From IMG/VR virus record IMGVR_UViG_3300028581_000056, positions 1-51,413 of that record: DNA of 51,413 bases; one strand, written 5' to 3'. The position numbers were made by a program, and so were the translations under genes. Positions 7,154-8,272 of the stretch are shown one piece after another. The notes beneath the pieces were generated by a model. That model did no database searches. It was not told the DNA's origin and saw nothing but the letters and a program-made list of their open reading frames with translations. The stretch is from a virus. Each line of letters opens with the position of its first letter. The first letter of the stretch is position 1.

Positions 7154-8272
7154 ATGATACGTATCAAAGATATAATCAAAGAAGAGGTTCTAAGTGAGGG
7201 GTTTTTTAAAGACCTAATTAATAAGATATTCTCTTCAAATGATGAGAGTGCTGAAGAAAAAGTACAAAAGATTGAAGATATCACTAAAACCTTAAATAAG
7301 TACAATATTAAGTCTGAAGAAATTACTGATTTATTGGATCAGATTTTAACTTCTGAAGGTAGTGAGGATTTAGATTTTGAGTTATTAAAAAGAACTATTA
7401 AGAACGTATTACTTAAAAAGGGTGATAAAACTAAGAATGTTACAAAATACTTCAGAAAAATTCTAGGCTCTTTAGGTTCAAGAACTTCTTATGAAGAAAA
7501 TCTACCAGATGAAGAGTATTATGAACCAGAAGAACAAGAAACATCAATAATACCTAGAAGACAATATAATAAAGAGAAAACAGCTTTACAGATTGAACTT
7601 CTTAAAATGCAAGAATGGTTAAAGAAAACTAATAATAGTGTTATTATCTTATTTGAAGGTCGTGATACAGCTGGTAAAGGTTCAACCATTAGAAAATTCA
7701 CCGAACATTTAAACCCTAGATTCTATAAAGTTGTTACTAAAGACGTTCCAACTAAACAAGAAAGAAAAGATTGGTTTAATCGATATAAAAATGATATTGA
7801 ACCAGGTAAAATTATCTTTTTTGATAGGTCTTGGTATAATCGAGGTATTGTGGAACCAGTTATGGGGTATTCTTCTTATGAGGAATATGAATCATTTATG
7901 GCACAAGTTAAAAATTTCGAAAGGGACTTGGTTAGTCAGGGTAATTTTTTAATTAAATTCTGGTTATCGGTTACTAAAGAGACTCAAGCTAAAAGATTTA
8001 CCATGAGACAAACATCCCCATTAAATTATTGGAAATACAGTCCCAATGATGCTAAAGCCCAAGAAAAATGGGGTTCATATACCAAATATAAAGAAAGGGT
8101 TTTTAAATTAACATCAACTCCTGAGGCACCTTGGGTTGTTATTGATAGTAACGATAAGAGAGTTTCTGGTTTAAATGCAATGAGGTATGTTTTAAATACT
8201 GTTCCTTACGAAGGAAAAGATGTTGATACTATTGGTCAAACATATCCTGAAGCCGTAACAAAAATTCGTTAA
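7154..8272 (+). CDS. ppk2: PPK2-family kinase with capsid-targeting-like leader
   Basis: The start at 7154 (MIRIKDIIKEEVLSEGFF) is preferred to ATG 7118 because of the box at 7140 and because it exposes the same leader helix as other proteins here, with IIKE and LSE as possible cleavage sites. Residues ~1-130 are a helical extension. Residues ~140-365 are a PPK2 domain: Walker A EGRDTAGKGST, the DVPTKQERKDWF region, Walker B-like FFDRSWYNRG and the typical LSVTKETQAKRF. PPK2 enzymes move phosphate between polyphosphate and nucleotides. The fusion suggests a kinase packaged in the virion and delivered into the host. Substrate direction cannot be read from sequence. Confidence 0.9.
   Translation: MIRIKDIIKEEVLSEGFFKDLINKIFSSNDESAEEKVQKIEDITKTLNKYNIKSEEITDLLDQILTSEGSEDLDFELLKRTIKNVLLKKGDKTKNVTKYFRKILGSLGSRTSYEENLPDEEYYEPEEQETSIIPRRQYNKEKTALQIELLKMQEWLKKTNNSVIILFEGRDTAGKGSTIRKFTEHLNPRFYKVVTKDVPTKQERKDWFNRYKNDIEPGKIIFFDRSWYNRGIVEPVMGYSSYEEYESFMAQVKNFERDLVSQGNFLIKFWLSVTKETQAKRFTMRQTSPLNYWKYSPNDAKAQEKWGSYTKYKERVFKLTSTPEAPWVVIDSNDKRVSGLNAMRYVLNTVPYEGKDVDTIGQTYPEAVTKIR

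Follow-up and report, generated by a model that had tools for sequence, protein, structure and literature searches.

In the closest described system, phage T4, the internal proteins IPI–IPIII and Alt carry a short N-terminal propeptide that ends in L/I-x-E and is trimmed by the protease gp21, which cleaves after this motif, and the enzyme or inhibitor is ejected into the host; the propeptides of the internal proteins direct the cargo to the prohead, for which 10 N-terminal residues of IPIII are enough, and tagged foreign enzymes have been packaged and delivered (PMC9026906). Giant phages such as SPN3US also contain many internal head proteins that are processed by a prohead protease and ejected, although they represent a different phage group with a different protease from the phages considered here, and the accessible portion of that source makes no mention of PPK2 (PMC10052503). 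PPK2 enzymes are classified by the residue after Walker B (Asn in class I, Gly in class II, Glu in class III); NDPs are the substrates phosphorylated by class I enzymes, and PPK2 reactions are reversible in a metal- and enzyme-dependent manner, some class I enzymes preferring polyphosphate synthesis (excerpts of PMC8776046). The ppk2 gene appears in a list of auxiliary genes (excerpt of PMC9636769), and in our search of the open-access literature we came across no phage PPK2 described as packaged or as carrying a leader.

Here we analyse a PPK2 gene in an IMG/VR virus record of 51,413 bases and 32% GC, the whole of which is called the window below. We propose that its product, a class I PPK2, is capsid cargo of a T4-like phage that would be trimmed in the prohead, injected, and used to make NTPs from host polyphosphate; we give this reading a probability of roughly 0.6. 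Its leader ends in L-S-E, as the T4 propeptides end in L/I-x-E. Whereas the known T4 cargo comprises the ADP-ribosyltransferase Alt and small basic proteins, the candidate cargo here is a polyphosphate kinase that brings a helical domain of its own, and in some PPK2 phages, unlike in T4, this candidate cargo is part of a multi-enzyme polyprotein. The parts have been described before; what looks new is their combination, as well as the polyprotein form.

The PPK2 gene, its catalytic domain and its relatives

The open reading frame at 7118–8272 (+) encodes 384 aa, and a second in-frame ATG at 7154 gives a protein of 372 aa. We favour the start at 7154 because the relatives L003–L005 start at the same aligned residue; the region of the alternative upstream start codon (7118–7153 (+), 12 extra residues) is therefore probably untranslated.

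The class I catalytic domain, together with the stop codon, occupies 7550–8272 (+): PF03976 (PPK2) covers residues 147–367 (E 5.6e-73; 245.7 bits vs. a cut-off of 22.3); the closest solved relative is Francisella PPK2 5ll0 (E 3.5e-72); and the kinase domain of the AF2 model matches 5llf/5ll0 (Foldseek E about 1e-24; TM by target 0.84–0.92). The Walker A motif GRDTAGKG (7658–7681 (+), containing D183 and K187) is near-invariant in 28 sequences, and alignment and conservation place Walker B, FDRSWYNR, at 7820–7843 (+) and the lid, RFTMRQTSPLNYWKYSPND, at 7994–8050 (+). K187, R237 of Walker B and R297 of the lid correspond to Francisella K66, R118 and R178, whose change to alanine cripples the enzyme (excerpts of PMC8776046); these three residues, D183 and the Asn after Walker B are invariant in the 28 aligned phage sequences. 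N241, the Asn after Walker B and the class I signature, falls at Sm N153 according to phmmer ranges. Fold, motifs, signature Asn and the residues essential for polyphosphate use are common to the phage protein and the class I PPK2s of Francisella (5LL0/4YEG) and Sinorhizobium (3CZQ). The complete set of PPK2 motifs reported in an earlier note on this DNA is thus confirmed by the Pfam match, the 5ll0 alignment, the Foldseek match and the invariant catalytic residues, and it is well supported that the PPK2 of the window is intact and belongs to class I, predicted to phosphorylate NDP to NTP while consuming polyphosphate.

At least 303 PPK2 relatives were found on viral contigs in IMG/VR. A PPK2 ORF is present in all of the best 80 of these 303; 77 of the ORFs are complete and have over 100 residues ahead of Walker A, and at 90% identity 32 non-redundant proteins remain. 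On bacterial genome contigs, 103 relatives were found, the best 80 of which were analysed, and in none of the 80 does the alignment start before residue 103 of the 372-aa query, most starting at 129–145. Within the sequences searched, the extension of ~130 residues and its leader are thus confined to phages as compared with bacterial PPK2s. In a tree of 61 sequences the 32 viral PPK2s form one clade (support 100/98) that excludes the bacterial enzymes; the nearest of the latter include those of Bacteroidota and Marinimicrobia. Given these tree neighbours and the style of the signal peptides, the host is probably a member of the Bacteroidota.

The helical extension and the leader

The AF2 model (28 sequences; 384-aa numbering) folds residues 43–126 into four helices, mostly at pLDDT 79–91. 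This predicted four-helix domain of the phage-specific extension (7244–7495 (+)) is absent from the aligned bacterial part and conserved as a domain among phage relatives, and it is followed by an acidic flexible linker (7496–7549 (+)) whose residues 127–138 have pLDDT under 50; the low-confidence stretches of the model are this linker and the N-terminus (1–43). Structure prediction therefore bears out the helical extension of ~130 residues that had been described ahead of PPK2, whereas the “leader helix” at its start is predicted as a helix but at pLDDT under 50. The extension alone gave no PDB fold match at E<=0.001, and its identification as a known domain was rejected, as the ATP-cone reached only E 0.009, below the cut-off.

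The protein of the window starts MIRIKDIIKEEVLSE↓GFFKDL, where the arrow marks the predicted cut, so that its first 15 residues end in an L/I-x-E site. We read MIRIKDIIKEEVLSE (7154–7198 (+)), which ends L-S-E before G, as a putative capsid-targeting propeptide by comparison with the aligned leaders of relatives; the gp21 rule L/I-x-E and these relatives put the predicted cut of the prohead protease, E↓G, directly after nucleotide 7198 (site 7196–7201 (+)). The leaders of close relatives read ..KKELISE↓GFFKD and ..KKTITE↓GFFKD; the form [IL]-[ST]-E↓GFF occurs in the window, L003 and L007, and [IL]-x-E↓GFF occurs in the polyproteins described below. The main-clade leader has the form M..LLxEIxRIKsVMGxxxE, and in the PPK2s of three huge phages a different leader is seen, ..FINEE or YDNFMNES, which resembles that of T4 IPIII (MKTYQEFIAE↓A; N-terminus MKTYQEFIAEAS in its sequence record). 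The leaders thus vary among lineages yet retain a common grammar.

The site by itself has to be read with caution. A match to [FILVM]-x-E at leader position 12–26 is found in 28 of 29 non-redundant stand-alone PPK2s, the window included (the exception, L122, is the one leader lacking the distal site), and in 4 of 24 bacterial PPK2s in the same control; however, 244 of 630 (39%) internal PPK2 windows of 15 residues also contain the site, and the internal window 150–164 is equally conserved, with the site in 27 of 29. As a three-residue site is this common in internal windows, leader-site conservation in one clade is weak by itself: we rejected conservation of the distal L/I-x-E within the PPK2 clade as proof, and the three-residue site alone is not significant for this single protein.

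Related leaders, modular polyproteins and head genes

Propeptide-like leaders are also found on unrelated proteins of the same phages, as indicated by an HMM, by pattern counts and by lysozyme genes. An HMM built from the 29 PPK2 leaders reports 11 of 795 other non-redundant proteins of these phages and of Flavobacterium phage immuto, the best-matching stretch starting in the first 30 residues for 10 of the 11. Reversing the 795 sequences yielded 3 matches, all away from the N-terminus, and 522 bacterial proteins yielded none. Only 3 of the 11 matches pass E 0.01, and several are homologous pairs from G007 and G010, so that the independent families are fewer. One leader precedes a transglycosylase-like protein (L097 4065–4793, SLT). 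The PG_binding_1 proteins G007 38338–39684 and G010 8534–9919 (just under the cut-off) have similar N-termini by eye; the leader HMM reported neither.

An amphipathic pattern ending in Glu ([ILVF]..[ILVF][ILVF].E at residues 4–14) was counted against its chance expectation in several protein sets: 11 observed vs. 1.2 expected for the window and its two close relatives (107 non-redundant proteins), 16 vs. 1.9 for immuto (166 proteins), 24 vs. 8.6 for the PPK2-phage contigs as a whole (453 proteins) and 2 vs. 2.7 for bacteria (318 proteins). In the positive control, 52 ORFs of T4 66–115 kb, the pattern was found 0 times vs. 0.6 expected, which we think reflects the small number of such proteins and the different leader sequences of T4. 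The motif [ILV]NE at residues 4–34 was likewise observed 43 times vs. 20.2 expected in the 453 proteins; since Lys is also raised before Glu, we do not claim a strict consensus of Asn before Glu. The enrichment does not extend beyond roughly the first 34 residues, and the leader pattern exceeds chance for the phage group.

Seven other ORFs of the window have candidate leaders: ..VIRLTENDVERLVKKILKE (6232–6579 (-)), MKDLIRKILKE (10069–10500 (-)), MKNLIKKILKE (14614–15606 (-)), MSKFSKIVKENIKNLLGE↓G (25389–26486 (-)), MNRNGIKHILREE (28276–28560 (-)), MEIKRIIIEQLVNE↓A (32339–32746 (+)) and MAVKETIKKFLKE↓G (47144–47884 (+)). The ORF at 25389–26486 adjoins a 585-aa protein (26519–28276 (-)) that combines DUF4314 and DUF5661. 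In the cultured phage immuto (L053–L055), several proteins start with MENFDLKKFLVEN.. or similar leaders, and HFIAEA, as in T4, occurs in one gene directly upstream of the protease gene; a literature search found no virion proteomics of immuto.

Lysozyme modules occur both as separate genes and as fusions. In L091, L068, L086 and L073 the gene next to PPK2 encodes the module on its own, behind a leader such as MKIIDILQRLLNE↓Q, and three of these four genes, all but that of L086, are recognised as lysozymes by Pfam; in L111, L114 and L126 it is fused to the C-terminus of PPK2, and the joint reads [IL]NE↓TEGADPKN. By Pfam, the fusion partners of PPK2 are Phage_lysozyme (L114), Phage_lysozyme2 (L126) and PG_binding_1 (L064), and the fusion junctions carry [IL]NE. 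A further module, X, stands before PPK2 in L080 (1,116-aa type) and after it in L064 (1,620-aa type), flanked by [IL]NE in both arrangements. As the junctions of both lysozyme and module X match, the module boundaries defined by homology coincide with the [IL]NE site.

Several features of the fusion proteins were observed alongside. The polyproteins of L064, L070, L080, L083, L084 and L095 are 1,115–1,620 aa long and combine PPK2 with modules in varying order, [IL]NE marking the joints; by eye, the first domain of L064 and L070 resembles a protein kinase, and Pfam gives it no name. In L009, L010, L012 and L014, PPK2 is followed by a C-terminal HEMEH domain that is metallopeptidase-like by eye and unnamed by Pfam; the end of L077 also carries HEMEH, with the same appearance and no Pfam name, and the domain has a distant match at the C-terminus of a 907-aa immuto ORF.

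The matching protease and its putative capsid substrate are encoded by relatives. A gp21-type protease (PF03420) was found at E<=0.001 in 5 of 12 records, most of them fragments; in a second record set, again mostly fragments, it was found in 10 of 13, of which 7 exceed the cut-off and those from the three huge phages match weakly, and it was not found in the other 3. An intact gp23-type capsid gene is present in 4 of 12 records, where 4 other matches are a short capsid-like pair, and in 5 of 17 records of a further set. In an alignment of seven capsid proteins of PPK2-bearing phages (G008 and G012 were left out), all seven have LINE↓[AS] at the T4 gp23 cut column (FLTE↓A), and the immuto capsid protein has VSE↓A there. 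On the window fragment and in its closest relatives, neither the protease nor an intact capsid gene was found.

Recognised head genes within 3 kb of PPK2 are rare among the 32 non-redundant loci, with 3 cases (L062, with terminase and portal, PPK2 sitting between the two in the L062/L063 lineage; L057/L058, with the short capsid-like pair), and we dropped head-gene synteny as a main argument. Convergent with PPK2 in the window, at 8269–9266 (-), are two small ORFs that carry gp23 capsid pieces in permuted order: compared with the capsid protein of G007, the first matches 513–574 and the next 340–400, then 70–107. The pair is also present in the contigs of L003–L005 and is therefore probably a real gene pair.

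Proposed packaging, alternatives and consequences

By the T4 precedent, the ~15-residue N-terminal leader would recruit PPK2 to the prohead core in the manner of a T4 capsid-targeting sequence; a gp21-type protease would remove the leader after Glu; and PPK2 with its four-helix extension would remain in the head and be ejected with the DNA. In the new host, as the enzyme class suggests, the ejected PPK2 would convert NDPs (probably GDP/ADP) to NTPs from host polyphosphate before phage gene expression. The “virion-sorting leader” of the earlier note gains considerable support from its L/I-x-E end, the leaders on unrelated proteins, the module fusions at the same site, and the matching protease and capsid site in relatives; packaging itself we strongly infer from these comparisons and from T4. 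For the metabolic role, the enzyme class is our sole guide. Use of PPK2 at the start of infection, or removal of polyphosphate used in stress signalling, as the note had suggested, may each apply, and it is possible that PPK2 drains polyphosphate or acts late in infection.

It could be argued that PPK2 is an ordinary auxiliary metabolic gene, made in the infected cell to aid nucleotide or phosphate supply, its helix serving only oligomerisation or the binding of a host protein. PPK2 is among the listed auxiliary genes of lytic viruses (excerpt of PMC9636769), the extension is conserved as a domain, and head-gene neighbours are rare; however, the PPK2 leaders match N-termini of unrelated proteins, the joints between modules carry [IL]NE while a separate lysozyme has its own leader, and the leader end fits the protease site in the phages' own capsid protein, so that we regard this account as rather unlikely. 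That the leader sorts PPK2 to another phage-made place (tail, membrane or replication compartment) and matches L/I-x-E incidentally would agree with a short, common motif and with lysozyme partners that could be tail proteins, but the confinement of the enrichment to about the N-terminal 34 residues and the recurrence of the site at module junctions and in the capsid protein make it improbable. A packaged PPK2 might, alternatively, mainly destroy (or make) host polyphosphate and so disturb stress signalling or counter a nucleotide-depleting defence instead of supplying the first transcription: the same chemistry lowers polyphosphate, PPK2 is reversible depending on metal and enzyme (excerpts of PMC8776046), and nucleotide-depleting defences exist. 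The class I signature nevertheless fits NDP phosphorylation best, and no sequence feature separates this proposal from nucleotide supply; we hold it to be unlikely and favour the packaged, NTP-forming PPK2.

A broader picture, to which we give slightly less than even odds, is that T4-like phages whose hosts are probably Bacteroidota form a large group with a kit of capsid cargo cut by the prohead protease (PPK2, lysozymes and other enzymes), encoded as separate leader-bearing genes or as polyproteins cut at [IL]NE; the PPK2 of the kit would give the phage access to host polyphosphate as a store of energy and nucleotides ahead of phage gene expression. If true, phages carry their own tool to refuel the cell from polyphosphate; a poorly understood bacterial polymer would be tied to the first minutes of infection; and the leader grammar would allow the enzymes that many uncultured jumbo phages inject to be listed from no more than their sequence.

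Two further features of the window may be recorded. It has 17 predicted tRNA genes, 10 of which form a dense array on the minus strand at 4607–5974, and the ORF at 10851–12494 (-) matches PHROG 850, “RNA-binding protein” (E 4.4e-44).
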